Below, in pieces: positions 3,552-55,275 of a stretch of 64,000 nucleotides of DNA. The notes below the pieces were generated by a model. It was not told where the DNA came from. It searched no databases and saw only the letters and a list, made by a program, of their open reading frames with translations. The stretch's first letter is position 1, and each line of letters starts with the position of its first letter. This stretch comes from Sipunculus nudus (lineage: Eukaryota > Annelida > Sipuncula > Golfingiida > Sipunculidae): NCBI GenBank assembly GCA_026874595.1, contig CM049313.1, forward strand, positions 23,928,008-23,992,007, in the 5' to 3' direction. The translations under genes were made by a program, and so were the position numbers.

Positions 3552-4103
3552 TATGTTCAGTTTCTATCCAAATGTGGTATTATATTTATGATGTAAAATG
3601 CGGCTTTGGGACCTCACTTAACTAGGTCCAAAATACACGTTTACAGATTTCATGAAATTATTTTTGAAAGTATCTGAACTTTAGGAAGTACTAAAATTGA
3701 TATTATTGTTGTCTGCATTACAGATTTTAGAAATTCTGTTTATGCAATTAAAGTTTCCTATATATTTCATTGTTTTGTCTGTTCATGAAATAAATATGGA
3801 TTTAATATATTTCCAAAGCTTTCTCTGATATGTTTTGTACCATAGGACCCCCTACCCCCTCAAAGTAATACACATTTGCACCCGTGGAGAGGGACAGAAG
3901 TCAGCAAGGGGCACAAAAGTAAATTTTATCAGCTAACATGCAAATTATAAGTGAAAAAAAAGTGTTTCAATTTTGCTCAATATTATGCAGAAATTTAAAA
4001 TTTTATTCCATGAACATGGCATGTTTGATACAAATCTCCATATTTATATTCTATTTACGAAATGTGTGTGTGATTATAAATCGGTGATGTTTCACTCGTA
4101 AAG
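3552..4103. other. Leader region before LINE, nothing recognised
   Basis: AT-rich sequence with no recognised coding motif. It may include the LINE 5' untranslated region. I saw no ORF1-like zinc-knuckle or RRM protein upstream of the LINE polymerase frame. Confidence 0.35.
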
Positions 4104-7100
4104 ATGTACCGTTTTTCGGCTTTTAGAAAAGATCCACGACGTGTGTATGTGTGTGAGATTTGTCATTATGACATTGTAGGACTGTGTGAGACATGGGCAT
4201 CACAGGAAACTGATTTTAATGACATGTTACAAGGTTACACATGCCATGCTACAGTACGCAAGAGGGAAAAGAAGAAAGGGAGAAATTCAGGGGGGATATG
4301 TGTCTATGTCAGAGATAAATACAACTGTACAATGAAACGTATTTATAAAAATTTTCAAGATATGATTGTTATATTGATGGACAGAAATAATCTTATAAAC
4401 CCAGATGTTATTATCATATTGATATTTGTTTATATTTCCCCTGAGGGATCTCCAGTTTATTCAAATGGTGATCATGGTATAAATATTCTTGGAGAAAAGC
4501 TAAAATTAATAAATTCTGATTATATTAATGCAGACATAATTATAGCAGGAGACTTTAATGCAAGAACTGGAACCATAGAGGATTATATTACACCATGTAG
4601 ATCAGATAATCCATTGAATGAAGTAATCTGCTGTATTGATGATAGTATAATAGAAAGATGTAATAAGGATAAGATAATTAATAGATATGGAAGATTTCTT
4701 GTAAATCTATGTATTGAACATGATTTAAAAATCCTAAATGGTAGATCAGAGAATGATCGAGATGGACATTTTACCTGTGTATCTAACAGTGGAACCAGTA
4801 CTGTTGATTATATTATCATGTCAACAAATCTGTTCAATTATATAACCAATTTTGAAATTCTCAAATTTGACCTTTCTGATCACTTTCCTATTTGTTGTAG
4901 GTTTACTACTACCATGGAAAAACACATACCTGCACCTTCAACTATGCACCTGCACCCTTACCAGAGAGTTTATTGGAAGCATGACTTTGCACTTGCACTG
5001 CACAATAATTTACTAGACCAGACAGGTAATGTATCTATTTCAGTATTTAAAAACCAGTTGCTAAATAGTAATGTAAATCCAGACCAGGCAGTAAACACAT
5101 TAGAACAGATTTTAAATAAAGTATGTTCTCCACTAGTAAAATCCCTAAAAGTACCAAAAAAATCAAAACAACCACCATGGTGGGATAATGAATGCTCAGA
5201 TTTCAGGGAACAAAAATATCTGGCATTCAATAAATTTAGAAATACAACAAGATTGGAAAACTTTCAGGAATATAAGGAGAAAAGGAAGAAATTTAAATTA
5301 CTTTGTAAACAAAAGAAAAACAGTTATAAAACTAATTTACAAATTTCATTGTTGGATGATATGCATCAACCTAAATATTTTTGGAGAAAAGTCAAAGCAA
5401 TAACCAGAGACACACCAAAGTGTGCTGATATAAACCCAGAAACATGGCATAATTATTTTAAAAATCTTTTGAATGTGGATGTTGTTATCAATTCAGATTT
5501 TGAGAAAACCGTTAACTCCTACCTTTTAAATCATGAACATTCCTGTGAAACCTGTACCAAAAATTATCCATTGGAATTAAATTCCGCTATCACAGAAAGA
5601 GAAATTATTTGGAGTATAGAAAATAGTCGTAATAACAAAGCACCAGGGACAGATGGACTTGTAGAAATTTATAAATGTATAAAGAATGAAATAACACCAA
5701 TCTTAACTTCACTATTTAATATGATTATGACAACTGGTTCATACCCAAAGAGGTGGTCAGAAGCTATTTTGAATCCTATCTACAAGTCAGGTAATATCAA
5801 TAATACAAATAATTACAGAGGAATTGCTTTACTTAATATAACAGGTAAACTATTTACAAAAATAATTAGCAATAGACTTACAAATTGGGCAGAGAAAAAT
5901 AACATGTTGTTTGAAAATCAAGCTGGGTACAGACATGGATATTCAACTATTGATCATATATTTACATTACATGGTTTGAAACAGAAATATTTATGTAAGA
6001 AAAGAGGTAGGATGTATTGTATTTTTGTCGATTTTAGTAAAGCTTTTGACAGAATCCCACATAAAATGCTCTGGTATAGATTACATAAAATTGGAATTCA
6101 TGGAAATATAATTAAAGTATTGAAATCTATGTATAGTCACTTAACTTGTTGTGTAAAAACAGAAAAAGGATTAACTGATACCTTTTTATGTTGTAATGGC
6201 ACCAGACAAGGTTGTCTTCTAAGCCCTATATTATTTATTTTATATCTTAACCAGTTCCTAGTAATGATTAAAGAAGCAACATTACCAGGAATTCAAATGT
6301 CACAAGAATCCCAAGATATAAATATTTTAGCTTTTGCAGATGATATATGTATTGTTGGCGACTCAGTTGGTCGTGTACAAAATATATTGAACATTTTAGA
6401 AATTTTTTGTAACCATTGGGGTATGCAAGTAAATGCAGAAAAAACAAAAGCTGTAGTATTTAAGAGGGCAGGTATAATTAAACATAATGAAAAATGGTAT
6501 TTCAAGGGAAAACAATTAACTAATGTGAACCAATATAAATATCTGGGAATAATATTTTCTTCTACATTGTCCTGGAATCCTTGTCTGAAATTATTAACAC
6601 TTCAAGCACAGAAGGGCCTGAATATGGTTAAAAAATGTGAATCTAAATGTGGTAAAATGTCTCCTGATATCACAATGAATATATTTGATAAAGTTGTAGC
6701 ACCAGCATTATTATATGGTTCTGAAATTTGGGGATTCTTATCAAGACCAATTATAGATAATGTGCAATCAAGATTTTGTAAAGAAATTCTGGGTGTTAGC
6801 AGAAGCACAGTTAATGCAGGAGTTCTGCTTGAATGTGGTAGATATCCTTTGCATTGTATGTACTTTAAGAGATGTCTAAAACATTGGTTAAGAATACTGA
6901 ATATGGGAAATTCTAGATATCCTTTTATTTGTTATAATGCCTTAAAACGGTTAAATGAACTAGGTAAGCCTACATGGCCAGGCTATATTAAGCATTTATT
7001 GAATAGGTATGGATTTGGCCATGCATGGTTAGAACAGGGAGTTGGTGATGAAAAAATGTTTATTGATATGTTTCTACAAAGAGTCAAGGATATCGGACAG

Positions 7101-7538
7101 CAAGAGATGTTATCTGAAATTAAAGAAAAATCCAAACTCAGTATATATAGTGAAGTAAAATCAGGCATTGAACCAGAACGATACTTAAATAATATCCCAT
7201 ACATCTATAGACAGGTTTTAACAAAATTTCGACTAAGTGACCATGATTTTGAGATTGAAGTAGGCAGAAGAAGTAATACTCCAGTAAATATGAGACTCTG
7301 TAAATTTTGTAAGAATGATGAAATTGAAGATGAGGCACATATTCTTTTCAAGTGTTCCAGATATAAAGATTTAAGAAATAAATTTTTATCATTTATACAG
7401 AATTTTCCACAAAATATATATGGGCTTATTCAGATTTTGAGAACACAGAATCACAAGATACAGAATGATTTAGGTGTATATTTATTTCAGGTAAACAGAG
7501 TAAGACAGGAAAACATTTCAGAAAATAATATTCCATAA
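4104..7538 (+). CDS. Non-LTR retrotransposon (LINE) endonuclease/reverse transcriptase
   Basis: One uninterrupted frame of 1144 codons. The apurinic-like endonuclease comes first: VGLCETW (residue about 30), AGDFNARTG (about 150), STVDYIIM and LSDHFPI (about 260). Reverse transcriptase follows: KAPGTDG, NYRGIALLN, FVDFSKAFDRIPH (about 642), GTRQGCLLSPILF and the catalytic FADD at 744-747. A C-terminal CCHC-like finger CKFC...H...C starts near residue 1068. Such enzymes nick the target and copy the element RNA at the nick. The usual first endonuclease strand (N-x-NG) is not visible, and an in-frame stop lies upstream, so the 5' end may be slightly truncated. A (GTT)n tail marks the 3' end. The clade is not settled; the finger suggests an I/Jockey-type group. 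Confidence 0.9.
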   Translation: MYRFSAFRKDPRRVYVCEICHYDIVGLCETWASQETDFNDMLQGYTCHATVRKREKKKGRNSGGICVYVRDKYNCTMKRIYKNFQDMIVILMDRNNLINPDVIIILIFVYISPEGSPVYSNGDHGINILGEKLKLINSDYINADIIIAGDFNARTGTIEDYITPCRSDNPLNEVICCIDDSIIERCNKDKIINRYGRFLVNLCIEHDLKILNGRSENDRDGHFTCVSNSGTSTVDYIIMSTNLFNYITNFEILKFDLSDHFPICCRFTTTMEKHIPAPSTMHLHPYQRVYWKHDFALALHNNLLDQTGNVSISVFKNQLLNSNVNPDQAVNTLEQILNKVCSPLVKSLKVPKKSKQPPWWDNECSDFREQKYLAFNKFRNTTRLENFQEYKEKRKKFKLLCKQKKNSYKTNLQISLLDDMHQPKYFWRKVKAITRDTPKCADINPETWHNYFKNLLNVDVVINSDFEKTVNSYLLNHEHSCETCTKNYPLELNSAITEREIIWSIENSRNNKAPGTDGLVEIYKCIKNEITPILTSLFNMIMTTGSYPKRWSEAILNPIYKSGNINNTNNYRGIALLNITGKLFTKIISNRLTNWAEKNNMLFENQAGYRHGYSTIDHIFTLHGLKQKYLCKKRGRMYCIFVDFSKAFDRIPHKMLWYRLHKIGIHGNIIKVLKSMYSHLTCCVKTEKGLTDTFLCCNGTRQGCLLSPILFILYLNQFLVMIKEATLPGIQMSQESQDINILAFADDICIVGDSVGRVQNILNILEIFCNHWGMQVNAEKTKAVVFKRAGIIKHNEKWYFKGKQLTNVNQYKYLGIIFSSTLSWNPCLKLLTLQAQKGLNMVKKCESKCGKMSPDITMNIFDKVVAPALLYGSEIWGFLSRPIIDNVQSRFCKEILGVSRSTVNAGVLLECGRYPLHCMYFKRCLKHWLRILNMGNSRYPFICYNALKRLNELGKPTWPGYIKHLLNRYGFGHAWLEQGVGDEKMFIDMFLQRVKDIGQQEMLSEIKEKSKLSIYSEVKSGIEPERYLNNIPYIYRQVLTKFRLSDHDFEIEVGRRSNTPVNMRLCKFCKNDEIEDEAHILFKCSRYKDLRNKFLSFIQNFPQNIYGLIQILRTQNHKIQNDLGVYLFQVNRVRQENISENNIP

Positions 7539-8300: not shown

Positions 8301-9850
8301 TTAGTGTTTGTCCTTTGTGAACTTCCTCCAACAAATTTTTAAATTTTTTTTCCATATTGTACCCACTTTGGGGCAAAACCAAAGTATATATTTCATAGTC
8401 TCTTCTTCCTGTTTACAAAATGTACAAGAGGCATTCACAAAATTGATCTTAAAAAGAAAGGAATTTAAGACTAAGCAGTTATGCATTATCCTGAATTGGA
8501 AATATCTCAGTTTACCGTCAATTGTTGTTCTGTATAAATTTTTAAAACCTTTATAAAGCTCATCTTCTGTGACAATTAACTCTAACATCCATCTTTTGAC
8601 CGTTTTCTCAATTTTTTCATTGAAATCCTTTAAAACCTTTCTATAAACAGTTTTGGTCATATCTTTATTTTTAATCAGGTTACAAAAATCTGGTTTGTTT
8701 CTTGACTCTGATTCTACCTCACCATAATCGATATTATCTGTAATAAATTTCTTCCATGGTAATGGTAAGGCGTTCTTTAAGCTTTGATAATATGGAACAT
8801 TAATTTTACAACCGTATTTAACCTTTAATTCATTATATTTCAACCATCTTAAATTATGCCCGCTCTCACACAAGAGATGTTTCAGCTTTGTTACTCATCT
8901 TTCTACCAAACTTTTTTTTACATACCACTCTTTCATCATTTTTAATATATGAATTAAACCATAATGGTTCTTCAAGTATGTCTTCAATATTATATACATT
9001 TTTGTACTTATATCTCGCCCAACATCGTAATATTTCTACCCAAAACTTAACAGATAAAGATTTAATATCCTTTTCATCAGTATTCCCTTCGAGGATATAT
9101 TTTATATTCCATTCTTAAATTCGTTAAGGCCAGATCACTCCATATTTTTATCTTTAACTCCTCTCCAACGAAGATTCTTTTTATCCAGGCTACTTTTATG
9201 GCAATATTTTTGCATTCAATGTTTATCATGTCCAATCCTCCTGTCTCTTTAGAATTATATAAAATCTTTCTACTTATTTTATTTGTGCCTCCGTCCCAAA
9301 CAAACGTATAAGTCTTATTTTCCCTATAGGTGTTAATATGCGATGGAACCACTGTTTTATTATTTTATCATTTTTTTCCATCTGCTTGTTATAATTTATG
9401 TCGACCATTTTTTTGCCAGCTTTTATAGTTATGGTTATACCTTAAACTGATACAGGCTCCTCTGTCCATTTTAGTCCAAGCTGATTAATTTTACCTTTTT
9501 CATCTAGACACATTTTTGAAAGAGGTTTAATTAAAGTTTTTTCTTTATTTATTCTTAATCCAGATATGTTCTGAAATTCTTCAGAGTTCTGTAATGCTTC
9601 TCTAACCGAGGTTTCCCCATCGGATAAGATTAAACACATGCTATCAGCGTTTTGTGTGCTCTTATACTCCTTATCAAAATATCTAAACGCTTTTATATTT
9701 TCGTTTTTTTTTTCTTATTTTCATAGCTAATATTTCAATTGCAAAAATAAAGAGGTAGGGCGACAAGGGGAACCATGCCTGACCCCTCTTGATAATTTGC
9801 AGAAAGTTGAAAAATAAACATTATTTATAACACACGAACTTCTATCTGTA
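8301..9850 (-). pseudogene. Decayed L1/Tx1-type LINE reverse transcriptase
   Basis: Read on the minus strand, the order is: SCVINN; RGVRHG, then after a frameshift PLSPYLFIFAIEILAMKI (RT motif B region); a motif C where the expected ADD reads ADS (about 9650); an SGLRINKEKT thumb (9442-9639); FVWDGGTNKISRK and GGLDMINIE (9077-9352); and the C-terminal LRYFQFRIMHN with CTFCKQEEETMKYILWFCP (8301-8873). This order and the FVWDG and CTFC blocks fit L1/Tx1-type ORF2. Frameshifts, stops and the damaged catalytic motif make it non-functional. The sequence upstream in element sense is missing, where a hAT-like end takes over near 9851. Confidence 0.75.
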
Positions 9851-13281: not shown

Positions 13282-14144
13282 ATGAACACAATTGCAAGAT
13301 GCCAAGTAAAGCCTCGATCACAACCGGCCGTACGTGCGTCCAAATTTTGTGCAGAATCTCACGTGCCACGCAAGTCTGTCTTGCGAAATTTCGAGATCGT
13401 AGACAGGGACTATTATGACCGAGAGAGCTGGAGATTTGTAGACTTACTGTGTGATAACAGGATTGTCATTCCAGAATACTGTACCTTAATCAGACTGGCC
13501 TGTACTAGTTGGCAGGATCCTTGCATGTCTCAAATATTTGTTCTTAGTGCTGCACTGTATCGGCCTACAGTAGACTTGTGTCCGGGCGAGGTGAGAGGAA
13601 ATCCAAGCCTGTCAACATAACTATTATGTGGACAAATGTGGAGCACACAAAACTTGACAGTGGATTTAGTCTTAAACCAATTTGTACCACTGTACAAGAA
13701 AAATGATGAACTAATTGTTGTTATCTACTCAGTGATAGCAACTCTGAAGGTGACCAATGAAACCCTAGACCATGTGAGACTGAATCAAACTATGGTGGTG
13801 AAACAAATGCTCCCCATCACGAGTGTATCAATTCAAAATCAGGAATGACCCTGTCAGATGAAACTGATGTTTCTGTAGATGAACATAATCATGAGTCCAT
13901 TATTTTGAACGGGAGCCCTGTTTTTGGAATCAGTGCAACCCAATCAAAGGTGAACAGAACAGTAGATTCTGGTACCTGTCTGTCAGATTCATCTGTCGGT
14001 GATGGAGAAACTCTTCAGGAGTCCATCAAACCGTTACGAGAAAACAAGCGGTCCACTGATCGGAGTATCATGAAACCATTCGATATTAAAGGTAGGCCTA
14101 AATCTGATATAAATTGGAAAACAGTTACATTTACAGCAAAGTAA
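13282..14144 (+). pseudogene. Unidentified broken coding region, possibly retroelement-derived
   Basis: Three consecutive open segments: 13282-13620 and 13636-13848 in one frame, separated by a stop at 13618-13620, then a shifted frame that opens near 13760 and runs to 14144. The middle contains VDLVLNQFVPLYKKNDELIV and VIYSVIATLKV. These faintly resemble the V-VLN-P-LYK-V-A pattern found after the protease in some retroelement polyproteins. The last part is rich in Ser, Asp and Glu and ends in basic residues. No catalytic motif was identified. A host exon cluster is the alternative. Confidence 0.25.
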
Positions 14145-15247: not shown

Positions 15248-17200
15248 AGCTCAGCTGACTGTAAGTCATCTGAGCTATAGCGATCACTCTTTGTCCGGCG
15301 TCCGTCGGGCTATCCGGCCGTCTGTCCGTTAACAAGGCACAAATCGTAACCACTGGACCTGAAATCTTCTAACTTTACATTCAGAGAGGTCCATGAAAAA
15401 TCTCCTTGAAAACCTGGAATTGGTCTCTGTTACCCGTATTCTTTAAGCTATGGGGCTCGGAAGTACCCCCCGGAATAATGAAAATTTGATACAAAAGCTC
15501 AAGTATCTGAACAACTAATACATTGATCACCATGATTCTTAGTTTGGATATTGTTCATGGAGTGTTTCTTCAGTTTCTGCGGACTGGTGGCGCCACCTGA
15601 ATTTTTTTGATTTTTTTTCTCTATTTTTGGGACCTCAAAAGATGCCGTCATCTGTTAACAGGGCACAAATTGTACCCGCTGGACCTGGAATCTTTTCATT
15701 TTACATCCAGAGAGGTCCATGAAAAGTCTTCTTAGAAACCTGGAATTAGGTCTCTGTTACCCATATTCTTCGAGCTATTGGGCTCCGAATTACCCCCAAG
15801 AATAATGAAAAATTTGATACAAAAGCTCAAGTATCTGAAAAACTAATGCATTGATCTCCATGATTCTTTGCATGGATATTAATCATGGACCGTTTTATCA
15901 GTTTCTGCAGACTGGTGGCGCCACCTGTACTTTTTCGATTTTTTAACGATTTTTTTTCTCTTTTTTGAGACCTTTAAGATTCCGTCATATGTTATCAGGG
16001 CACAAATCGTAAACGCTGGACCTGGAATCTTTTCACTTTACATCCAGAGAGGTCCATGAAAAGTCTTCTTGCAAACCTGGAATTAGGTCTCTGTTTCTCA
16101 TATTCTTCCACCTATGGGGCTCCGAGAATAATGAAAAATTTGATACAAAAGCTCAAGTATATGAACAACAAATGTATTGATCACCATGATTTTTGCATGA
16201 ATATTAATCATGGAGTGTTTTATCAGTTTCTGCAGACTGGTGGTGCCACCTGTACTTTTTCGATTTTTTAACGATTCTTTTCTCTATTTTTAGACCTGAA
16301 AAGATGCCGACATCCGTTAACAGGGCACAAATCGTAAACACTTGACATGGAATCTATAGACTTTACATCCAGATAGGTCCATGAAAAGTCTCCTTGGAAA
16401 CCTGGAATTAGGTCTCTGGTACCCCTATGTTCCAGCTATGGGGCTCCGAGGTACCCCCCCCCCCCCCCCAGAATAATGAAAAATTTGATACTCCTAGAAT
16501 AATGAAAAATTTGATACAAATGCTCAAGTATATGATAAACTAATGCATTGATCAACATGATTCTTTGCATGGATATTCATCATGGAGTTTTTCATCAGTT
16601 TCTGCAAACTGGTGGTGCCACCTGTATTTTTTTTCGATTTTTTACTATTTTTTTATCTATTTTTGAGACCTTAAAAGATGTGGTCATCTGTTAACAGGGC
16701 TCAAATCGTAACAATTAGACATAGAATCTTCTCACTTTACATCCAGAAAGGTACATGAAAAGTCTCCATGGAAACCTGAAACTAGGTCTTTGTTACTCTG
16801 AGCTATTGGGCATTTAAACACCCCGATCATGATTAAAAATTTGATACCAATTAAAGCAGGGCACAAATCATAAACATGGACCTGGAATCTTCTAACCTAA
16901 AATCCAGGGAGGTCTATGAAAATCTCCTTGGAAACGTGTATTTAGGTCTCTGTTACCCATATTTATTGAGCTATGGGGCTTATAAATATAAGCACCCCTC
17001 AGAATAATTGAAAATTTGATACCAAAGTAGGGCACAAATCATAACCTTTGGGCCCAGAATCTTATAACTTGACATCCTGAGAGTTCCTCAAAAGTTCTCC
17101 CAAGAAACCTGAAATTAGGTCGCAGTGAACTATATTCTCAAAGTTTTGGGGTATGTTTAAGCACCCTAGAAATAATGCAAAAACACACAAACTGCCAGAT
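15248..17200 (+). repeat. Stem-loop repeat family A with internal units of about 330 bp
   Basis: It opens with a hairpin (15248-15276): AGCTCAG, TGACT, a 3-nt loop, AGTCA, CTGAGCT. Units then start at GTTAACAGGGCACAAATC-like sequence near 15328, 15654, 15991, 16314 and 16690, with shorter decayed units near 16856 and 17028. Each unit carries GACCTGGAATCTT, AGGTCCATGAAAA, a GGGGCTC-CC block and GGTGGCGCCACC or a one-base variant. Related copies are at 35650 and 52350. The design recalls non-autonomous Helitron/Helentron-like elements with central tandem repeats. Noncoding. Confidence 0.75.
16454..16469. repeat. Poly-C tract
   Basis: Sixteen C in a row, in the position where other family A units carry a shorter run such as GTACCCCCC. 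Confidence 0.9.
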
Positions 17201-21059: not shown

Positions 21060-22700
21060 AATTAACAGACAATTAACCCCCCCCCCTCCCCCAGTCCTTG
21101 ATAAGATGCATATGACCTGTAAGTTTGGACTGTACCAACAATTTTGTTTGAGTTATTGCCGTAATTTCATTTTAACATTATCGCTTCTGTGACCTTGAAA
21201 AAATGTATCAAGGTCATCCATGTTCAAATTTGACCTAGCCGTTGATAAGACGCATCAAACATGTGGGTTTGGTGACTGTACCTCAAATTCTTACAAAGTT
21301 ATTCCGTTTAAACATCATTTTAGCAAGAAAACAACATAAGGTGGCGCCACCTTTCTTCTGCAGAAAACAATGCTATCAAAGATCTTATGTCAGTTTGATT
21401 TTTGGACCAATCCATGCATCCCTCAGTGAGATATTAAAGTTAACATCATTTCAGCGTTATCGCCTCTGTGACCTTGAAAAAAGCATCAAGGTCATCCATG
21501 TTCAAACTTGGCCTAGCGCTTGATAACATGCATCTTAACTGTAGGTTTGGTGACTGTACCACAAATTCTTTTTGAGTTATTGCCCTAATACCATTTTAGC
21601 ATTATAGCTGCTGTGACCTTGAAAAAAATGCATCAAGGTCATCCATGTTCGAACTTGACCCAGCCGTTGATAAGATGCATCAAACCGGTGGGTTTTGTGA
21701 CTGTACCTCAAATTATTACAAAGTTATTGCCCTAATATCATTTTAGCATAATCGCTGCTGTGACCTTAAAAAATGCATCAAGGTCATCCATGTTCGAACC
21801 TGACCTAGCCCTTGATAAGATGCATCTAAACTGTAGGTTTGGTGACTGTACCGCAAATTCTTTTTGAGTTATTGCCCTAATATCATTTTAGCATAATCGC
21901 TGCTGTGACCTTGAAAAAATGCATCAAGGTCATCCATGTTCGAACTTGACCTAGCCGTAGATAACATGCATCAAACCTGTGGGTACGATGTCTGTATCTC
22001 AAATTCTTACAAATTTTTGCGTTAACATCATTTTAACAAAAAACGACACAAGGTGGCGCCACCTGTCTTCTGCAAAAGACAAAGCTGTCCAAGATCACCG
22101 GTCGATTTGATTTTTGGATCATTCCATGTATCCCTTACTGAGATATTAAAGATTGTGTGTGAATTTCACCAAATATGGGAATATTCAAGGTCACTCTCAT
22201 AGGAAAGGTCATGACTCCAATTTAAATAAACATCATCCCATAACCCTTATCTATGTATATGCATAATATAAAAGAAATCTGTCCAATAGTTTTTGACTTA
22301 TATTGTTCACAATACTGTCCAGTGGCAATTTTGGGGGTATTTAAAGGCACGAAAACAAGTAAAGAATGATAGGTGGCGCCACCAGTTTCTGGAAGATGAC
22401 AACCCTATCCATGATCTTTGATCAACTTGATTTTGGGATCAATCCATGAAAGATTTCTTGAGATATTTAAGAATTTGTGTGATTCTCTCCAAAATTGGAC
22501 CTATTCAAGGTCAAGGACACTCTCCTAGTAAAGGTCATGACCTCATTTCAAATAGGTGTCGTCCTCTCGCCCATCTCTATACATATACCAAGTTTGGTAA
22601 AGTTCCATGAAATATTTTTTGAGTTATCGCGCCAACAAGATTTATATGCGGCGGAGGCGGGACCGGCATGAAAACATAGTATCCCCCGACTTTGTCTGGG
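21060..22700 (+). repeat. Stem-loop repeat family C with units of about 146 bp
   Basis: Five units carry TGACCTTGA, 8-11 nt, TCAAGGTCA at 21190-21216, 21469-21494, 21613-21641, 21760-21786 and 21905-21931, with GATAAGATGCATCAAAC and GTGACTGTACC blocks between them. GGTGGCGCCACC occurs at 21340, 22052 and 22372, each followed by CTTCTG-like sequence and a CCATG-ATC block. The 3' end near 22680-22705 is a small hairpin, ATCCC-CGACTTTGTC-GGGAT. Noncoding. Confidence 0.7.
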
Positions 22701-23389
22701 ATTACAAAAATGTGATATCTACATATTGATTATGTTAATTATGTATTATTTTTTATTTTGAAAATGGCTATATATGATATTATATTTTCTGTAGATTTGC
22801 AAATGTATAAAAAAGGAGCCACAAAATATGATCAGATGAAAAGACCAGCTACTGAGGAATAAATTAATATCAGATATGCCAGGGTTTATTAAGTATATTG
22901 TTGAAAAAACAGCCAGAAATAGAAATATGTAAATTTGGCTAAGTCTGTGGAAATAGAAACAGTTACGAAAAAAACACAGTATAAATCGGTGTAATTTGTT
23001 TTCAACTTTTGAAGTTTTACACCACAACAGGGTGTGCTTAAAAAATATATTTATAAACTGTTTTCATTTGTTTGATATAAATTTGATATTTTCAATGTTA
23101 TTCCATTAATAAATAGAGAGTACTGAAAATGTGAGTTAAATGTATTTAAATATTACATTCCTTCTCAATTCATCTGAACCATGCTGATATATTTTGGTAA
23201 CTACCATTTACATATTTTAAAATTAATAAATTTATTACTTTCAGCTATGTTTGGTAATTTGGACTATACGGATTTTGAATATTTTTTGCTTTATTGTTTG
23301 TTTTTAAAATATATATAAATAATAATATATACCTCATGCTACATTAAAATATTACAGGTACGTATGATATCATTATTATTTATAATGAT
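22701..23389. other. No gene recognised
   Basis: AT-rich. A minus-strand frame (22746-23027) is hydrophobic through base composition and has no recognisable family. Confidence 0.35.
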
Positions 23390-23760
23390 TGTTACGGGGT
23401 GACATAAAAGCGGACCGTACTCTCTCGCTAGTGAAGCTTATTTTTCTAGCGAAGCGGTTGGAACGCCAAATATATGCGCCACCGACATGGGTTCGAATCC
23501 CGGGATCGGCCCAGTATTTTCCCCGTAGCAATTTGTCATCGTAGCAAATGGGGGTTCGTCCGGGATGACGGCAATCTTTGTGTCCCAGGGACTGGTGGTT
23601 TGAATTAATTGGGCAAATACTGCCACATGGTTCACCAAAAATGTGACTCCTGGGATAGGTCATCGTGTTCTGAACGCTCTTAAGAGGGGGTGCATGTGTT
23701 ACGGGGTGACAGAAAAGCGGAACATACTGTCTCGCTAGTACAGCTTGTAATTATCTTTCA
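23390..23760 (+). mobile_element. Miniature LTR element (TRIM-like) with tRNA-like promoter in LTR
   Basis: The 5' LTR candidate runs 23390-23546, starting TGTTACGGGGTGAC and ending GTAGCA. After two bases comes TGGGGGTTCGTCCGGGAT (23549-23566), which differs at one position from the classic proline-tRNA primer-binding site used by murine leukaemia viruses. About 130 bp of noncoding interior follows, then a purine tract AAGAGGGGGTG (about 23681-23691) and a second, truncated LTR start at 23697 with about 43 of 48 bases matching. Inside the LTR, TAGCGAAGCGG (23447-23457) and GGTTCGAATCC (23490-23500) match tRNA A and B boxes at tRNA-like spacing. No protein is encoded, so mobilisation would need a partner. 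Confidence 0.65.
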
Positions 23761-23945
23761 TAAAATATTTGTAGCAGATGATTTGTCTTAAGCATCCATA
23801 CACATGTACTTAAATACATAAATGTTAGGTAAAACATCAAGTGGCAAGGATATTGTATGAAATTTTCAAAGTGCATTTGGTAATATACAATAGCATATTC
23901 ATTTGCATTAGCTTTAAATGGACTGAGTTGCATCGTAGCCTACCC

Positions 23946-24349: not shown

Positions 24350-25224
24350 TTTCAAAATGTGTATCTGGCAACACTAAACAATCGTTCCACCGGAGCTGAT
24401 GTAGCTGGAACAGTAAGAACTTTCTGGCCAGCTAGGCGAGTAGCGGGAATGCGCTTGATATTGAGTGCCAAAACTGCATTGGGTCAGTAGAATCTGGAAG
24501 GCAAGCTGCAGTCAAATATTCCTCTACCTCCTCTGCTGCGTCAGTTGATTTAATAGAAACTGCCAGTGCTTTGTTGTTGCTCTCCATCTGCGGCGTTTGA
24601 CCATTGACACGGGATGTGATGGAGACATATCGGGTTGACTTAGACGGTTGGTCTCTGCGGGTAGTTTCATTTTCTGGTCAGCTGCTTCACACTGAACTTT
24701 ACACCAAGCCAGCCTGAAGCGAGGATCTGGTGTTGCTGCCATCCTAAACGAAGGTGTCTCTTCATAGACACTAAGACGTGTCTGTCAATGGACTTTTTCA
24801 GGCTGGTCCGGTGGTGGTGCTGATCTCAGCTAACTGAGTACGCTATGGACAACAAGGCTGGCTGTCACCACCTTCTCACCTTGTGTCAAGTCTGTTGCAG
24901 CTTCAGAAGGAGCCAGTATTTCACAAAGTTCTTGAAGTAGAACTCTGTCATGATTGCTCAGCTTCACATTTGACTCTAGCATGTTCAGCTTTTCCTCAGG
25001 AATACGGAGAACAGAATTGATCATATTGACTTCAGAATTCCATCTAGTAACATTAGCTGCCTGCAGTTTGCGATGGCCTTCCAAGAGATCAGTACTTGTT
25101 GTTGACTAACGGAGATAGGAAACAATCTGAGAGGCTTTTGCAATGACAGTGCGGAGAGAGCCAGCTTCATTCAGTCCATCCTTAACTACTAAGTTGGCTG
25201 TATGGGCAAAGCAGCCATCACGTT

Positions 25225-26426: not shown

Positions 26427-28745
26427 GTGAGAACACAGAAATGGGCAAAGTATGTGCAAACATATATCAGCGACATGAAGGCACTCGAGCACAAACACCC
26501 TGAAAGCTACCAACACTTTCATGTAGGAGGTTTTGTAAAAAGACTATCTGCTGAGAACACATTCAATGCAGTAGCAACTTATCAGCCTTTTGAACAAACT
26601 ATAAATCGTGATCAAAATAGCAAAGGTGATGTAGTTGGTCTGGCGCTCCGCGAGGGTGCACTTACGCATCACCTGGTGACTGACATGGAGAATACCTGAA
26701 AGCATTCAGGAATTTATGTGACACAAAGGGAAAGACCAACACAACTCATAAAGAATGCGGAAAGTTGCGCATAGCAAAAGATAGCAGTAACGTAGTGCAA
26801 ATATTAGGGGTTGCTGAAAACTGCCCGAATCTCTTTGATCTTGAAAGCGTTCCAGACAACTCATTATTATAGTTACGGGACAAGTTGCATCTGCAACAGT
26901 TCGATCTACCGATCCTGAAAACTGGCACAAGAAAGGTAGAATCATTTGTGGAGCGGAGATTAGTGGATAAAGCAAAAACTAGATGTGTCGGAACGACACG
27001 AATGCCCCCGCCTGGGGCAAATTAGAAACATTTGTTAAATTTTGAAAATGTTTTTAAGTTCAGGTGTCATATGGTCAAAAGGAGGTCAACTGGGACGAAA
27101 CGCGGACTCGATCTGTAACTGGTCAATATCTGCCCACACACCAAAATTCAGGCCAATATCTGCAGGCATTGCAAAAAAAGTCCCTTCATGTGTATTTGTC
27201 ATGAAAATTTATATTTTTCATGAAATTTTCTAAGTTAAGGAGCCGTAAAACGGTCAAAAGTAGGTCAACTGGGACGAAACGCAAACTCGATCTGTAACTG
27301 GTCATTATCTGCCCACACACCAAACATCAGGCCAATATCTGCACATATTGCGAAAAAAAGTCCGTACATGTGTATTTGTCATTAAAATTTATATTTTTCA
27401 TGAAATTTTCTAAGTTAAGGAGCCGTAAAACGGTCAAAAGTAGGTCAACTGGGACGAAACGCAAACTCGATCGGTAACTTGTCATTATCTGCCCACACAC
27501 CAAAAATCAGGCCAATATCTGCAGGCGTTGCGAAAAAAAATTCGTTCAACTGTTTTATTTCGGAATGACGGAAGGACGGAATGACGGACATGGGTAAACT
27601 ATATACCCCGGCCACTTTGTGGCGGGGGCATAAAAATCTGGGACACAGATCCTCGCTCGTAGGTTCTCACCTTTGCAGATATGTATCACGTGGTGAAATC
27701 AGGTCACTCGGGTATCAAGTGGTGATTTCACCACTAGTATTCACCCTAGTATTTAATAATACTCAGACACAATCTCTGAGGTCCTCTTTCGTCGATTACT
27801 GGTTATGTCTAATCAGCGGGAGGTTGGCCTTGAGGATGTCCTAGGGCATGAGCTGGCCAGTATTCCTCCGTCTGTTTTAAATTATGATGCGACAAGGAAG
27901 AAAAAAGTTCAGGCTAACTTGGCGAAGAAACTTGAGGCTAAGTGTGCAGAGGTACACCCATTTGCAAACAGGCCCCAGCACAGCCTACGTGATCGATGGT
28001 ATGGCCCGGCTTCAAAGTTTGAATGAAATCCAGTTTATAACCTTTTAAGAATGGGGTCTTATGGTTTTACAGTGTATAAAACGACTCTTAGATGATAATT
28101 TAGGTGTGGAAAAATTTGCACTTGTGTTTGATAGATACCATAAATCCCCGGTCTATTAAGCAACTTGAAAGACAGCGTTGCGGTGACGAAAACGGACCAA
28201 ATTATGCAATTTCAATTTCATCTCAATTTTTATTTTGTCCAGGGCACCGCATATCCTGATCAGCAAACAGTGCATCATTCTTGCTGGTTAGGATATACGG
28301 ATGGTCAGCTTGTTAAACAGGTAAGTCAATCAGGAAGGAGCTAACAGACGCATGGTTCTCCACGCCATCCATCTGCATGATACTGTTGACCGATTAATCA
28401 TCCGTAGTGATGTGCTGGTACTGCTGCTGTATTACAGGCAAAATGTGTACAAGCAGACAAGGCATACAACAGCCAGAAGGGACAGACGGCGCTTCATCCC
28501 CTGTCAGTGACATTATGGAAAAGATGGGCCGTGATTTTGTTACAGCCTGCATTCAGCTTATGCACTTACAGGTTGCGATACCACAAGTGCCTTTTTCAAA
28601 ATTTGGAAACGATCTGTATTCTCAAAACTCGTGGACTATGTGAAGAACACGCCTGACGCGCTAGGAACGTTTGGGCTGTCTGGCAATGCTGCAAATGATA
28701 CAAATGCTGCATGGAAATGTGTGCTTCAGCTCTTTTGAAAACAGT
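26427..28745 (+). pseudogene. Broken copy of a widespread uncharacterised animal protein family
   Basis: Pieces in order on the plus strand: WAKYVQTYISDMKALEHKHP, FVKRLSAENTFNAV, EQTINRDQNSKG (26427-26699); NLFDLES and VESFVERRLVDKAKT (to about 26980); then, after an insertion, FADMYHVVK; LEDVLGHELASIPPSVLN (27805-28026); YVIDGMARLQSLNE; KRLLDDNLGVEKFALVFDRY; RRMVLHAIHL; and ALTGCDTTSAFFKIWKRSVF with LVDYVKNTPDALGTFGL (to 28740). I recognise this block order from large, often intron-poor, multicopy uncharacterised proteins of molluscs, cnidarians and fishes. The VIDG, DRY and GCDTT blocks look nuclease-like, but no activity is established that I know of. Several frameshifts, stops and one element insertion (26985-27634) disable it. 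Confidence 0.65.
26985..27634 (+). mobile_element. Tandem-unit element with GC-rich inverted ends, inserted in pseudogene
   Basis: Ends ATGCCCCCGCC (27001-27011) and GGCGGGGGCAT (27621-27631) are exact inverses. Three internal units of about 180 bp start near 27049, 27231 and 27411 and share GGTCAACTGGGACGAAACGC and ATCTGCCCACACACCAAA. The 3' end folds as CCCCGGCCAC-TTT-GTGGCGGGGG. AAAAACT and AAAAATCT flank it and may be a worn target duplication. It splits the surrounding protein family between KAKT and the following IWDTDP block. Confidence 0.65.
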
Positions 28746-30165: not shown

Positions 30166-30914
30166 CCGTATTTCAGCTTCCGGATGTGAACTGTTAGATA
30201 TCCTGGCAAATGATTTCATTTAACTCCAAATCGAGGCATATGTGCACCGTGTTTAGCCTTCTGCCACTGCCCTCTATGCCCTCTATGGTGAACTCCCGTG
30301 AAAGGGTCCTTGAAATTCTTGGAATGATTGACAGTACTATGTGTATAATCTAATTCCTCCAAACAATCATAACTCTTGCAACAATCAGAAAATGTTATTG
30401 TTTCGACCTCTGTGTGTTTCTGATTAATTGAGATTAAAGTTTCTTTACTGCGGTCATATAGAACCACCATGAACACTGTTGTTTTATCATCCCTTTCCCT
30501 TCCGCGAAAACCCACCCACCTTTCACGGTATTATCCCGATTGTACCTATGCTTGGCAAACTTTGATTCGTCTATTTCGACTATCACATTGTCCCCTCCCA
30601 TTTTACCACCACTGTCTGTTTCTCTTAAAAGTATTTCTTCACATATTTTGCAACAGAAACTGCTACAGTCGACGACAGTTTTATTGCTGCATTCTAGTTC
30701 ATGTGTAATGTGATCTCATGCACCATAAGTATGTCAGCTCCGGGATTTCCTCCAAAGTCATATTCGACAATGCACGCTAACTACCATGTCTGATAGACAA
30801 CCTGATATCATGAGCTGGGTTTCTTTTCTGACAACGCCATCTAACCAGTTCACTAGTTTTAGAACTTGATGCTGACACTAATTTCATTGGAGAATTACAT
30901 TTATGACAAGTACG
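30166..30914 (-). pseudogene. Merlin-superfamily transposase relic (IS1595-like)
   Basis: In order on the minus strand: a zinc-ribbon-like TCHKCNSPMKLV near 30900 and VRWRCQKRN; IPELTYLWC; VIVEIDESKFAKHRYNRD and GGWVFAEGKG with the first catalytic Asp (about 30560); after a frameshift, FMVVLYDRSKETL and TITFSDCCKSYDCL with the second Asp; YTHSTVNHSKNFKDPFTGVH; GQWQKAKHGAHMPRFG; then a stop and HLPGYL. This is the order of Merlin/IS1595 DDE transposases, and nearly the whole protein is represented. A family-typical TIEGTW block reads RGHRGQW, which puts the third catalytic acid in doubt. Several stops. Confidence 0.8.
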
Positions 30915-33872: not shown

Positions 33873-33950
33873 CACAAACAAATCGGTTGGTACGCCGGAC
33901 TTGTGCGCCACAGGTATGGGTTCGTATCCGGGATCGGGCAAATAATTATC
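33873..33950 (+). repeat. Second copy of the tRNA-like LTR segment
   Basis: CGGTTGGTACGCCGG, GCGCCACAGGTATGGG and TTCGTATCCGGGATCGG align with 23455-23510 in the miniature LTR element at roughly three quarters identity. The B box reads GGTTCGTATCC. No flanking LTR or primer site was seen, so this is a fragment. Confidence 0.55.
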
Positions 33951-34374: not shown

Positions 34375-35400
34375 AGACCTGTCGATTTATAGACCTGTCG
34401 GAATTCCAATATGGCAGCCACGATGCAGTCGGTGATTTTTAGACTGAACTTGGTTTGAATGATCAATCTGTGTCCGATCAGATAAGTGATTATTAAACCA
34501 TATTTACTGGATACCATGTACATCATACTTTTTTCTTTTAGTAAGCAAAACGTTATGATAAACGCTATCAAAACCTTTCCATATATCAATAAAACATGCG
34601 GCAGTGACATTTTTATTTGAATTGATAAAGCATTGATCTATTGTACTTTGTAAGGCAAATAAAGCTGATCTGCTTGAAGATATGTAATGTTTATCTGTAA
34701 ATAGATCATTGTTATTGAAAAAGGTAATTAGGCTTGATTTAACCAACTTTTCTAGTATTTTCGGTACATGATTTATTACTGAAATAGGTCGGTAGTTATT
34801 ATGATCACCCTTACTGCCGGACCCTTTGAATATAGGAGTGATTTTAGCGGTCGTATAGCCTGCAGGGATTTTACTAGTGAGAAGGGAAAGGTTAAATATA
34901 TTGGCTAAAGAGTGTACAATTTGATGAGCTGCCACTTTGAGAAAAAATCAAGACATTCCCAATATTTCTTCTGTCACACTGTATTCCAGTTTCAATTGTT
35001 GTGACAATATAAACTGTGTGGAAATAGCATTGAATTTAAAGGATTCAGAATGTGAGATTACAAGGTGATTGCAATTAAACTCGTTCACTGGTAAAATCTT
35101 CACTAATTTTACTTTAGGTTTATCAGGTTCAATCTGAGGCTTAGTGGTGTCTGACGACGATTTGGAGGGTAATATATGTTTAAGAGCTGTCCACATGCCT
35201 CTTGAATTCGCTTATTTATCTTGGATCAAGATATCATGGTTAATTAGAGGGTTGTAAACCCTTTATTTTGACGGATTTAATGCGACGTTGGAGTAGAGGG
35301 GCATTATTATTACATATTTTCAAAAGTGCATAGCGCCATAATTCCAAAGCTAGCTCTTCATCAGAAATAATTAAAATATGTCATAAAAACATAGATCAGG
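34375..35400 (-). pseudogene. Truncated CR1/Jockey-like LINE reverse transcriptase
   Basis: Minus strand, in order: LLQRRIKSVKIK (about 35300); MWTALKHILPSKS and VTEEILGM (34948-35196); then AAHQIVHSLANIFNLSL, KITPIFKGSGSKG, NNYRPISVINHVPKILEKLV, SRSALFALQSTID and ACFIDIWKGFDSVYH, the RT motif A region (34504-34935); and LSDRTQIDHSNQVQSKNH (about 34420). This is the first half of an RT with its preceding linker. The region normally holding YADD is missing. Motif A reads DIWKGFD where LDLSKAFD is usual. Stops confirm decay. Confidence 0.75.
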
Positions 35401-39524: not shown

Positions 39525-40669
39525 GCTTGCCGGAAATCTTCGATTTCGGCAAGCATGTTGGTCAGTTGCGTATGTCTGTTTGTTGCTTGCCGGAAATCTT
39601 CGATTTTTCTTACACTAATATCTCGAATCAGATTTTTTCATTTTCCAGATATGGCCGCTAGGGGGCGCTGCACTCGAACTTCCCCAACATATCTTTTTTG
39701 GGCCATATCTAAAAAATTTTAAACCCCAATTACAGAAACTATAGCTTATTTTTTTTCCTCTGGGTCTTTTCCATAAGCTGAGAAAGTCATCTGGTCTCAG
39801 CGTTGTGTAACTTTGTCAGTATGTCTGTCTGTTTGTCAGTTCTCCACAAATTCGCCTGCTTGCTGGTTTTGTCCTACATATAGCATTCTACAGGCAACGG
39901 TTTTGCAGGAATCGCTTTGAACTGGTTCATCTTATGTCTTACAGTTATATCCCGAAACAGATTTTTCATTTTCCAGATATGGCCGCGAGGGGGCGCTGCA
40001 CTTTTACCTCCCACAAATATCATTATTTAGGCCATTTCTCCAAAACTCAAACCCTCAATTACGGAAACTATAGCTTATTTTTTTTTTCTCTGGATCTTCT
40101 CCATAACCTGAGTAAGTCATCTGGTCTCAGCTTTGTGTCACTTTGTCAGTATGTCTGTCTGTTTGTTAGTTCTCGAATTCGCCTGCTTGCTTGTTCTTGT
40201 GTCCCAAATATAGCATTCTACAGGCCACAGTTTTGCAGGAACCCTTTTGAAACTGGTACATCTTATGCCAAAACCTAATATCACGAAAGGAATTTTTCAG
40301 TTTCGGGATATGGCCACTATGGGGCGCTGTACTAGAACCAATACAAGGTATCATTTTTTGGCCATATCTCCAAACCTGTGAACCTTATCTGCATAAACTA
40401 TAATTATTTTGTTTCTAAACACCTTTTTCATATGATAATCTAGACACCTGATAGCTCAGATGTGTCAGTATGTCTGTCCAATTGTCGGTTGTTGTGAGCT
40501 CTCTCGGCTTGTTAATGTTCTTACTTGTGATATATGGCGTTCAACAGGACACAACTTCTCAGCAATCGCTCTGAAAGTCACTGAATTGATAGAAAACCGA
40601 CAGTTTGTTCTTTCTGTCCGTCTGTCTATTATTTCATTTCCGGCAAGCGTTCGACCTATGGTCGTCTAG
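39525..40669 (+). mobile_element. Helitron-like non-autonomous element with ~325-bp units
   Basis: The left end folds as GCTTGCCGGAAAT-CTTCG-ATTTCGGCAAGC (39525-39554), and GCTTGCCGGAAATCTTCGAT recurs at 39585. Three internal units share CAGATATGGCCGC-AGGGGGCGCTGCAC or a variant near 39645, 39975 and 40300, plus CAGTATGTCTGTCTGTTTGT. The right end has ATTTCCGGCAAGC (40636-40648), inverse to the left end, then hairpin CGACC-TAT-GGTCG and CTAG followed by T. A hairpin shortly before CTRR-T is the hallmark of Helitron 3' ends. No Rep/helicase is encoded. Confidence 0.55.
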
Positions 40670-44199: not shown

Positions 44200-46757
44200 G
44201 CAATAAACTAAGAGAATTAGGATTTTCACACAAGAGTTTTTCTTAAAGCAGTTTCACTGGACCGCGAACTGAGTGTCCAAAAACTAGTTCAAAGGAACTG
44301 AAACCTAAGGACTCTTGAAAGGATTCTCTGACAGCAAACAGCAATAGGTGAATTCCTTCATCCCAGTCTTTCTGTGTGTCATAACAGTAAGTCCTGATCA
44401 TTTTTTTTAATGTCTGGTGAAAACGCTCGGGGGCGCCCTAACTTTCAGGATGGTATGGCGAAGAGCTGTACTTTTTTTGTACATAGCTCAAGCATAACCT
44501 GCTCGAATAAGCCAGACATAAAATTAGACCCTTGGTCAGACTGGACGGATTTTGGTAGTCCAAAAGCCTTGACAACACTTTTGGCATTAATTTTCCGCAA
44601 TGGTATTGCTTCAGGGAACCTGGTAGTTGCGCACATAATTGTCAGCAAGTACTCGTGTCCAGATTTTGTTTTGGTTAGTGGTCCAACACATTCAACAATA
44701 ATCCTACTGAATGGTTCCTCGAAAGCAGGAATAGGCCTAAGTGGGGCTTAAGGAGGATTCTGATTGGGATTGCCTACCATATGGCATGATTTACAATATT
44801 GTACAACATCAGTCCTGAGGTTGGGCCAATAGAAGTGTGTACTAACTTTCTGATAAGTTTTATTTATACCTAAATGGCCAGACAAAGGAGCCTCATGTGC
44901 CTTGCTTAGAATTTCATTGCGAAAGCTTTTGGGCATTACTATTTGATGTTTGATGACCCACTCATCATCAGCACATACACCAGGTGATCGCCATTTACGC
45001 ATAAGCACTTTTTTAACAAACTGGGTTCTGTGAGAGTTCATCTTTAGAAACCGCCCTGGGCAACAAATATGAAATATCAGGGTCCTTATGCGTTCCGCGA
45101 TAAGTTCTGACCTTGAAAATGCTGCATCCTGTACGGGCGAGTCGTTAGACGAGTCACTAGTGACTCCTAGAGTGTTGTTATCTGGACCATTATCCTCATG
45201 TGTGTTATTCATGGTAATAGACCTAGTTACAGCACATGAAGGATACAGACCAGGAATTTCCTGACTTTCAGGATCAGTGTCCTGATCAAGTGACGGGCTT
45301 TCTGTCACTATTGGTGCAGGCTGTACTTTGTCACCAGAAACATCATTGCCTTGTAGCAACTGAATTCCTTTAAAGGGTAAAGTAGTTTTTATGCCCACAG
45401 TAATATTCCCAGATATCCAATCTGACTTTAAATGTATACTGTGAAGCGGAACTTAAGTGTGCTTGTCTGAAAACACACAATAGACAAGTGCATGTGCACC
45501 AGTAAAAGACCTATTAGAAAATGGCAAAGTGTTTGCTAATTCTAATAGGGGTAGAGTCTGAGAAACCCTTGAAAGTGATACAAGACCATCATGTTTGAAT
45601 GGCTCAAATAACTCCATTTCAGAGTCAGGAGAGGAATCTACTACCTCAGTTTCATCAAACAAAGAACTGACACTGAAAGTGTCAGTCATAAACTCTTTTT
45701 CAGAGTCATTAAAGGAATCTACATCCTTTTTACCATCAAACTCCTCATGGGAGTCAATAGAGGAATTTTCCTCAGCAGAAACAAACTTCTGTTAGTCATT
45801 AGAGGACCTGGCCTCATTTGAAATACCCTCGCAAGAGCCATAAAAGGACTTATTCAGAGAATACTTCCTTGCAGAATTCTTTAAAGGACCTAGGCTTATT
45901 AAATTCCTCGCAGGTTTTTTACCCCTCAAGCTACGGATTCTACGGAGTCAGACGGCACGTTGAACCCCTTATTTACATGAAAAGAGACAGGCTCTTGTAC
46001 TATGCTTTGCATAGATTTTGAAACAAAACCAGAAGGTTTGCCATTTGTTTTTTTCGCAAGTTTCCAGCAGTCAGATATTATATGTCCTTCCTTCTTGCAG
46101 TAATTACAGATTTTCTTCGCAAATGACTGCTTTTTGTTTGACTTAAACACAGTGGACGTGGACTGAGGTGTAGCAATGGACTTTGCAGAACTATCAGGAC
46201 TACTAGTACTGGGTGACTGCGCTTTAAACTTCTTTTGACCATACTGATTTACATACTTGTTTGTGAATGCTTGGTTTGATTTACTAGTAAAGGACACTTT
46301 GTGTGTTAATGAATAATCATCAGCTGAATAAGCAGCAATGTCAAGGGTTTCAGGACTTTTCTCATCAAGAAAAGTTTTATCGTCTGCGTTAATGCAGCGC
46401 TTGAATTCTTCAAGCAAAAGCAACTGGCGCAAATTGTCATTACATTTTTAGAACTACACCAGCGATCAAACAACTGCTCTTTTGTCCTAGCAAATTCGAC
46501 GTAGGTCTGCTCTTTGCGCTTTTCCCGATTTCTGAATTTCTGGCGGTAAGCCTCCGGAAATAACTCGTAACCTTTAAGGATTAACTATTTAACCAGGGCA
46601 TAGTCAGAAGCAGCTTCTACTGAAAGCTCTGTATAAATTTCTCTGGCCTAGACAGTCAATACACTTTATAAAGTCCTAATTGTTCCTTTGTCAACTGTTC
46701 AAGTTGATCAAGGTCGGGATCGTCAACTAGTGTCTTAGGTTTGAAATAATCTGCCAT
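44200..46757 (-). pseudogene. Gmr1-like Ty3/gypsy gag-PR-IN relic
   Basis: Gag starts MADYFKPKTLVDDPDLDQLE at 46757, then passes several frameshifts to EEFKRCINADDKTFLDE and a zinc knuckle, CNYCKKEGHIISDC (45926-46432). A protease remnant follows: HDGLVSLS and NTLPFSNRSFTGAHALV (45453-45689), where the catalytic D-T/S-G segment is deleted, then LPFKGIQLLQGNDVSG (about 45350). Integrase comes next: GHLGINKTYQKVSTHFYWPN with CKSC (44748-44960), then TIMCATTRFPEAIPLR and SVQSDQGSNFMSG (44445-44648), and LLLFAVRESFQESLGFS (about 44300). Integrase directly after protease, with no RT between, is the order of Gmr1-type Ty3/gypsy elements. The RT expected downstream is absent, so the copy is also truncated. 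Confidence 0.7.
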
Positions 46758-46882: not shown

Positions 46883-46902
46883 CCTCCCAGAGGAGCCCCC
46901 AA
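46883..46902 (-). other. Primer-binding site of the Gmr1-like element
   Basis: On the minus strand TTGGGGGCTCCTCTGGGAGG lies between the LTR end and gag. TGGGGGCTCCTCTGGGAG matches the proline-tRNA primer site TGGGGGCTCGTCCGGGAT at 15 of 18 positions. Confidence 0.5.
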
Positions 46903-46907
46903 TTTTA

Positions 46908-47881
46908 TGTTACGGAACCTAATATCAACAGATCACGTATGCGTGATGAAGATAACTTTTGTAATGCAGATAAAAAAAAAATCAGATTCTGTAACACTAG
47001 GCAGCGTGAAATGTCAAGGGGAAAGAATAAAGAAGTCAGTGGTTTTTTGTTAACAAATAACTATAATTTATTCTTAAAACTAACCTAACATTACAATATA
47101 CTAAATCAATACAATTACACAGTATAACAGCAATATAACGGCAGATCAATACAATCACCCAGTAACATAAACAAAATGCACAGTACCTGGATACCACCAC
47201 TGTCACAGCTTATTTCATCTAAGAGAATAATAGTCCAGTTCATTCGCAAAATCAATCCGCCGTAATCCCAAAGTGAAGTTCCTGTCATAATCCCGAAAGC
47301 AAACTGAAGACTATATTAGATCGGTCACAAATCTAGAATAGAATCTATAATTACCGCACTCATCGGAAAAGGTCCCACGAACTGACTTACACGTTTCTGT
47401 GTCCCCTGTAATATTTCTCTACTCTCTCTCCTCGGCTCTAAAACACAGCCCCTATTTATAACCTTTCATCCGAAAACTCTAGAAAATTTCCTTTCGCGAA
47501 CAATCGAAAAGAACCTAACATGATACACAGTAAACACGCGTTACAGGAAACATCCAGAACAACACTGCTGTGTCTCTACATACCAGGGTTCACACGTGAG
47601 CCGGCCAGGCGAGAAAGCCCCAGACTAGCATGACCGCTGTTCACACGTGTTCCACGCGTGGGCCGGGCTTTGCCGTCATAGCAACAGACAACGCTAGAGG
47701 TGAACAAACGCACTGCTGCATACAATAAAAGACACATCTATAACAATTTACATCCTCAACAATAGCCTATTTTTATATAGCCCGGTTCGCAAATGTGAAC
47801 ATCACCACTGACCTGGGGGGTGAACTCGAAGCATTCGTAAGCCGAACGAATGCATAACAAAGTCGTTACTCCATCGTTACA
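46908..47881 (-). repeat. 5' LTR of the Gmr1-like element
   Basis: In element sense it ends GGTTCCGTAACA at 46908, six bases before the primer-binding region. TATA-like boxes appear as GGTTATAAATAGGGGC (about 47450-47465) and GGGCTATATAAAAATAGG (about 47767-47784). The start is uncertain: TGTAACGATGG at 47881, or near 47800 if a separate DNA transposon begins at 47811. No 3' LTR was found in the window. Confidence 0.5.
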
Positions 47882-54574: not shown

Positions 54575-55275
54575 GCTTGATAAAGGACATACAGACAAAG
54601 TGACAGACATAGAGACAGACAGAAGCCAGAAACTCCAAAACAAATCCCAACCAAGGTATGCATAAGAGCAATCACCGATAAAAATTTGAATGAAATCGGA
54701 TAATATTAAGGAAAGTTATCGCACGGGAACGAAAACCTGACAGACAGACATAGTGACAGACATACAGACAGACAAAGGCCAGACACTCCAAAACCAATCC
54801 AAACCAAGGTAAACATGAGAGCAATCACTGGTCAAAATTTGAATGAAATCGGATAATGTTTAGGAAAGTAATTGCACGGAAACGAAAACCTGACAGACAG
54901 ACAGACAGAATGACAGACAGACAGACAGAAGCCAGACACTCCAAAACCAATCCTAATCAAGGTATGCATGAGAGCAATCACTGACCAAAATTTGGATGAA
55001 ATCGGATAATATTTAGGAAAGTTGTCGCACGAAAACGAAAACCTGACAGACAGACAAAGTGACAGACAGAAGCCAGACACTCCAAAACCAACCCCAACCA
55101 AGGTATGCATGAGAACAATCACTGGCCCAAATTTGGATGAAATCGGATAATATTTAGGAAAGTTATCGCACGGAAACGAAACCTGATGGACGGACAGACA
55201 GACAGACAGACAGACGGACAGACAGACAGACAAACCCAAATAAATGTCCCCCCGCATCATCGGAGCGGGGGCCTA
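54575..55275. repeat. Tandem array of about 150-bp units with GACA runs and terminal hairpin
   Basis: Four units share GCCAGACACTCCAAAACCAA (54625, 54778, 54931, 55073), GAGAGCAATCACTG, TGAATGAAATCGGATAAT and AACCTGACAGACAGAC. The array ends in a (GACA)n run, then CCCCGC-ATCATCGGA-GCGGGG and CCTAAA. The hairpin with CTAA at the 3' edge again suggests a Helitron-like end. Confidence 0.75.

Follow-up and report, generated by a model that had tools for sequence, protein, structure and literature searches.

Helenus elements are TRIMs with tRNA-derived sequence in their LTRs (Kojima, 2024; PMC10886601). Helenus is known from plants and fungi and from six phyla of animals; bivalves are among its hosts, and the pteriomorph bivalves have 51 families. 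The elements are 311–1263 bp in length (PMC10886601). Primers of bivalve Helenus include tRNA-Pro, target duplications in animals are 4 bp, and Gypsy elements are the likely helpers of Helenus in animals (PMC10886601). The class name is TRIMp3, and the suggested origin is the insertion of a SINE into the LTR of a TRIM; the Pol III activity of Helenus has not been experimentally validated (PMC10886601). Further, Helenus elements are mentioned in a 2026 meeting report (PMC12859917).

Here, we describe an element probably of this kind in a 64-kb stretch of DNA, which we call the window. The first-pass annotation of this DNA regarded a miniature LTR element with a tRNA-type promoter as an unusual animal analogue of Cassandra. 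The tRNA-type counterpart that it proposed exists and is named Helenus: because Helenus was described in 2024, from six animal phyla among others (PMC10886601), the kind is already known. The element is thus probably a further example of Helenus, here with a tRNA-Pro primer and in a single damaged copy, and not a new kind.

Like the molluscan families of Helenus, the present element is a short LTR element with A and B boxes in an LTR and with a primer site and a purine tract between the LTRs. In the bivalve families tRNA-Pro is among the primers and Gypsy elements share the primer type; the element described here is also of the tRNA-Pro type. In contrast to Helenus, the tRNA-like unit was present in one LTR only and a 4-bp target duplication was not found, a comparison based on the published description of Helenus. 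Cassandra, a plant TRIM, likewise has a small-RNA Pol III promoter (putative in the present element) in its LTR, which holds 5S rRNA sequence (PMC10886601) in place of a tRNA-like unit. Another TRIM of animals, biv-TRIM of bivalves, similarly has short repeats that enclose a short interior, together with a purine tract (PMC6934838). Its repeats are 202–218 bp and its interior 77–80 bp, compared with 157 bp and 148 nt here, and its purine tract is mostly GGGGAGA with no unambiguous primer site, whereas the present element has a clear tRNA-Pro site; no tRNA-like repeat is mentioned in the opening part of the Results on biv-TRIM (Satovic et al., PMC6934838). Finally, tRNA-derived SINEs likewise have A and B boxes, which come from a tRNA-like head. 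However, no body or tail was visible here, and the unit was located inside an LTR beside the primer site.

Organization of the element

The features of the element and of two related sites in the window were as follows (+ and −, strands).

23390..23546, +: 5′ LTR, TGTTACGGGG...CATCGTAGCA, 157 bp; begins with a 50-bp direct repeat, has TG..CA ends and is followed 2 nt on by the primer site
23447..23514, +: tRNA-like unit, borders approximate; in the 5′ LTR, absent from the 3′ LTR
23447..23457, +: A box TAGCGAAGCGG, part of the sole A+B pair on both strands of the window
23490..23500, +: B box GGTTCGAATCC, starting 43 nt beyond the start of the A box
23517..23520, +: TTTT just past the tRNA-like unit, possibly a minimal Pol III terminator
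23549..23566, +: primer-binding site of tRNA-Pro type, TGGGGGTTCGTCCGGGAT, one mismatch to the proline/MLV-type site
23567..23681, +: interior, apparently noncoding, read directly; no frame of at least 90 codons among the plus-strand frames listed
23682..23690, +: polypurine tract AAGAGGGGG, read directly
23697..23794, +: 3′ LTR, apparently without the tRNA-like unit; 88% identity with the 5′ LTR over its first 50 bp, remainder gapped, right end uncertain (alternative 23776)
33880..33937, +: the tRNA-like core a second time, degraded and with its A box not conserved; no clear likeness in the LTR flanks
46884..46901, −: proline-type primer site, three mismatches, belonging to a Gypsy-type element in decay; LTR-like end CCGTAACA 6 nt upstream

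Read directly from 5′ to 3′, the order was LTR start, A box, B box, the GTAGCA end of the 5′ LTR (23546), primer site, interior, purine tract and second LTR start (23697). This is the order that had been annotated, with an interior of about 130 bp; it was indeed present, but the second LTR was not a full copy, and the purine tract was 6 nt (TGCATG) away from the 3′ LTR start. The interior measured about 130 nt including the purine tract, and the span between the LTRs 148 nt (23549–23696). Positions 23390–23439 and 23697–23746 formed an ungapped direct repeat, identical at 44/50 positions, for which the naive binomial probability, without correction for searching, was about 1e-18. The element thus had two short direct terminal repeats, matching first over these 50 bp and then in a gapped continuation to about 23794. 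The element had been annotated as ending at 23760; the gapped alignment of the 3′ LTR places its end more likely near 23794, giving a whole length of about 405 bp.

As expected of a TRIM, the element was short and lacked recognisable coding capacity, the open frame on the minus strand having only a sub-threshold Pfam match, and a primer site was located beside the 5′ LTR. The minus-strand frame (23379–23750; 124 codons) was free of stops and spanned nearly the entire element on the opposite strand. It had no Pfam match above the cut-off, the best being DSL (E = 0.033, sub-threshold), and a coding interior was thus unsupported. A nearby frame (24833–25105) had no match in Pfam or among solved structures. 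A plain tandem repeat, which the first-pass annotation had named as an outcome that would overturn its reading, was rejected: TRF identified no array overlapping 23390–23800, and the repeat copies were 307 bp apart with an LTR-like order between them.

No clean target duplication was detected at the likely ends, where TGAT precedes 23390 and TCCA follows 23794. If the 3′ LTR ended at GTAGCA (23776), there would be a 6-bp duplication with one mismatch (AATGAT/GATGAT). The divergence of the LTRs, approximately 12% (88% identity), indicates that the copy is old.

Promoter boxes, primer site and a possible helper

The A+B box pair was found once in the window (both strands) and in 0/200 first-order Markov-simulated 64-kb sequences (both strands), with search patterns that were composed once the site was known; matches to the B box alone numbered 24 across the 200 simulated sequences. 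The distance of 43 nt between the starts of the boxes is the spacing in a tRNA without a long variable arm. Of the annotated tRNA-like Pol III promoter, the box pair exceeded chance and the promoter activity is putative, but the boxes were present in one LTR only. An LTR, here the 5′ LTR, thus contained a tRNA-like stretch that includes both boxes, as in Helenus, and the likeness of the unit to tRNA is limited to these boxes and their spacing. ARAGORN, under its bacterial-code setting, identified no tRNA gene in the window, and the tRNA-like unit had no match in Rfam at gathering scores. At E values up to 1, a search of 23300–23850 gave no tRNA match; its two matches, one to a nematode snoRNA (E = 0.031) and the other to a microRNA family (E = 0.27), fell far short of the respective gathering scores. 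Further, folding of the unit gave a z-score of +0.94, and 163/200 shuffles folded at least as well. On the results of ARAGORN, Rfam and the comparison with shuffles, a true tRNA gene was rejected, and there was no recognisable cloverleaf.

The primer site began 2 nt past the GTAGCA end of the 5′ LTR. It had been annotated as one base away from the murine leukaemia virus type, and a count confirmed the single mismatch. The mismatched base could presumably form a G·U pair with a proline tRNA. When up to 3 mismatches were allowed, the proline-type site had 2 matches in the window and a mean of 0.00 in 100 shuffles; the two were 23549–23566 (1 mismatch) and 46884–46901 on the minus strand (3 mismatches). 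The primer site's own pattern had a mean of 0.03, with a match in 3/100 shuffles.

The second of these sites belonged to a decayed Gypsy-type retrotransposon (44448–46584, minus strand) with an LTR-like end near 46908. On the minus strand, Pfam identified an integrase zinc-binding domain above the cut-off (44751–45452) and an integrase core match under it (44448–44747); a SCAN match was also under the cut-off. The first 8 bases of the miniature element, when reverse-complemented, give the LTR-like end CCGTAACA of the remnant. However, the 8-mer TGTTACGG occurred 4 times on the two strands of the window, with about 0.7 expected per strand, and one occurrence was within the coding frame of another Gypsy-type element. 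Comparison of the miniature element with the 5′ region of the remnant revealed no similarity beyond chance: 98/200 shuffles scored equally well, as did 68/200 for the interior alone, and common descent of the two was rejected. Because the 8-mer is weak and no similarity exceeded chance, the remnant can at most illustrate the class to which a helper might belong.

These features suggest how such an element would have been copied. Pol III transcription would start near 23435, inside the 5′ LTR. The weak TTTT at 23517 may act as a leaky stop that is read past some of the time, with the transcript ending in the 3′ LTR. Runs of at least four T within 23390–23793 occurred at 23441 and 23517 only; because there is none from 23521 to 23793, a transcript that passed the TTTT could extend into the 3′ LTR. 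First-strand reverse transcription would be primed by a proline tRNA and the second strand by the purine tract, with the enzymes for copying and insertion coming from an autonomous Gypsy element that uses this primer type as well. The tRNA-like unit would form most of the repeat (R) region. In this copy, the 3′ LTR would since have lost the unit, and the copy should for this reason no longer move.

The mismatched LTRs and their origin

The second LTR had been taken for a whole LTR. Its ungapped match to the 5′ LTR ended after 50 bp, and the continuation aligned best with the tRNA-like unit left out: the next 48 bases scored 99.5 against the 5′ LTR minus the unit and 81.0 with the unit kept. 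The gain from removing the unit was equalled by 5/2,952 random continuations drawn from the window. Less strikingly, the right tail alone was matched in score by 18/4,693 windows, and the tail compared with the rest of the LTR was matched by 5/500 shuffles; these tests were picked after seeing the sequence, so that the case is somewhat overstated. We concluded from the alignments that the 3′ LTR likely extends to about 23794 and appears to lack the unit. In this single copy, the tRNA-like sequence is thus in the 5′ LTR and absent from the 3′ LTR. In Helenus, it would be expected in both LTRs of a family consensus.

The LTRs of such an element are identical at insertion, as a result of reverse transcription. 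Unless there was recombination between two subfamilies, the 3′ LTR has therefore since lost the unit or the 5′ LTR has acquired it. We favour loss, because LTRs that include the unit are well known from animal elements. A gain is possible because of the near-repeats on the two sides of the unit, TATTTTTC (23439–23446) and TATTTTCC (23515–23522), which were read directly. The mismatch offers a small lead on the gain or loss of such promoters.

A second copy of the tRNA-like segment had been annotated at 33873–33950 as a sign of a dispersed family. The core is indeed related: the alignment of 33880–33937 with the tRNA-like segment scored 54, which 0/500 shuffles reached, with 46/58 alignment columns identical by hand count. 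The LTR flanks, however, were not clearly shared. Under looser scoring the alignment continued across the LTR flank on the right, but this flank by itself resembled the 33.9-kb copy weakly (14/500 shuffles as good), and neither the strict nor the loose alignment extended into the left flank. Because the core is common to both sites and the flanks are not clearly so, the 33.9-kb copy is better evidence that a tRNA-like module is dispersed than that the LTR is. No second full copy of the element was seen in the 64-kb window.

The reading best supported by the sequence is a miniature LTR element in which one LTR contains a tRNA-like unit with A and B boxes, a putative promoter, and we consider it probable that the locus is a single old, damaged and immobile copy of a Helenus-type TRIM of about 405 bp. 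This assignment is based on the LTR repeat, the A+B pair and the primer site 2 nt past the LTR; the lack of a run of at least four T in 23521–23793; a length and order as in Helenus, including the tRNA-Pro primers and Gypsy partners of bivalves (PMC10886601); and the Gypsy remnant in the same window with its tRNA-Pro-like primer site and LTR end CCGTAACA. Several observations count against it: the unit is in one LTR, there is no clean target duplication, and the purine tract is 6 nt off; the fold is no better than shuffles, and neither ARAGORN nor Rfam reports a tRNA; and similarity to the Gypsy remnant is lacking, the shared 8-mer is weak and no second full copy was seen. Chance assembly, with a 50-bp duplication around unrelated sequence and accidental promoter-like and primer-like motifs, would agree with the single copy seen and the unclear target duplication. 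It is nevertheless highly improbable, because the repeat, the box pair and the primer site each exceed chance and are ordered and spaced as expected.

The main rival, which we regard as somewhat unlikely, is that a short tRNA-derived retroelement or tRNA retropseudogene was inserted, after integration, into the 5′ LTR of an element that had no Pol III promoter, either a plain TRIM or a small LTR element of another kind. The 3′ LTR does align best to the 5′ LTR minus the unit, the near-repeats TATTTTTC and TATTTTCC could be its target duplication, and the relative of the unit at 33.9 kb has no clear LTR flanks. However, the unit has about the size of a tRNA, and neither a SINE body nor a tail was visible; the near-repeat has few bases and is rich in T, and integral tRNA-like units in LTRs are established in animals (PMC10886601). 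Further, the 3′ LTR retains both flanks and 6 extra bases and is therefore not a clean empty site. The other outcome that would overturn the first-pass annotation, a SINE beside or within an unrelated repeat, is less probable than a Helenus-type copy. That one LTR represents a filled site and the other a nearly empty one, with a tRNA-derived unit having entered one LTR of a plain TRIM after integration, is itself unlikely; if true, the locus would have captured the initial stage of the route by which Pol III-driven TRIMs are proposed to arise, the insertion of a tRNA-derived element into an LTR. The mismatched LTRs and the unclean target duplication would also fit an origin from two related TRIM subfamilies, with and without the unit, of which the locus would be a recombinant or a tandem remnant. 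Tandem TRIM arrays are reported in bivalves (PMC6934838), and tandem arrays also for the zebrafish Helenus LTR-11_DR (PMC10886601). We consider this origin very unlikely, since it needs two subfamilies, of which there was no evidence here, and simple loss of the unit from an old LTR is cheaper.

Pattern searches and other features of the window

The exact LTR-start pattern had no match in viral contigs or in genome contigs, which is little informative because these were viral and prokaryotic collections. The pattern of the LTR–primer site junction and that of the primer site also had no match each in viral contigs, a viral collection being similarly uninformative. A string search of the literature returned papers matching the 10-mer TGTTACGGGG alone, and, judging by the listing, none of these was on this kind of element.

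Other mobile elements were present in the window. A long minus-strand frame at 60179–64000, open at the window edge, belongs to a Gypsy-type element that may be recent; the searched part (60179–63100) contained reverse transcriptase, RNase H and integrase domains. A 1152-codon open frame on the plus strand (4080–7535) represents a non-LTR retrotransposon, with endonuclease and reverse transcriptase domains in the searched part (4080–6479). Retrotransposon pieces on the minus strand matched zf-RVT (8304–8894) and reverse transcriptase (34507–34947), and 30219–30530, also on the minus strand, matched the ISXO2-like transposase domain DDE_Tnp_IS1595 (E = 7.5e-10). A weak Pfam match of 13761–14141 (plus strand) to a potyvirus coat protein, at 23 bits against a 27-bit cut-off, is probably due to chance. 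Tandem arrays were located at 15328–16458 (325-bp units), 21441–22008 (145 bp), 27073–27539 (180 bp), 39608–40339 (330 bp) and 54586–55232 (153 bp).
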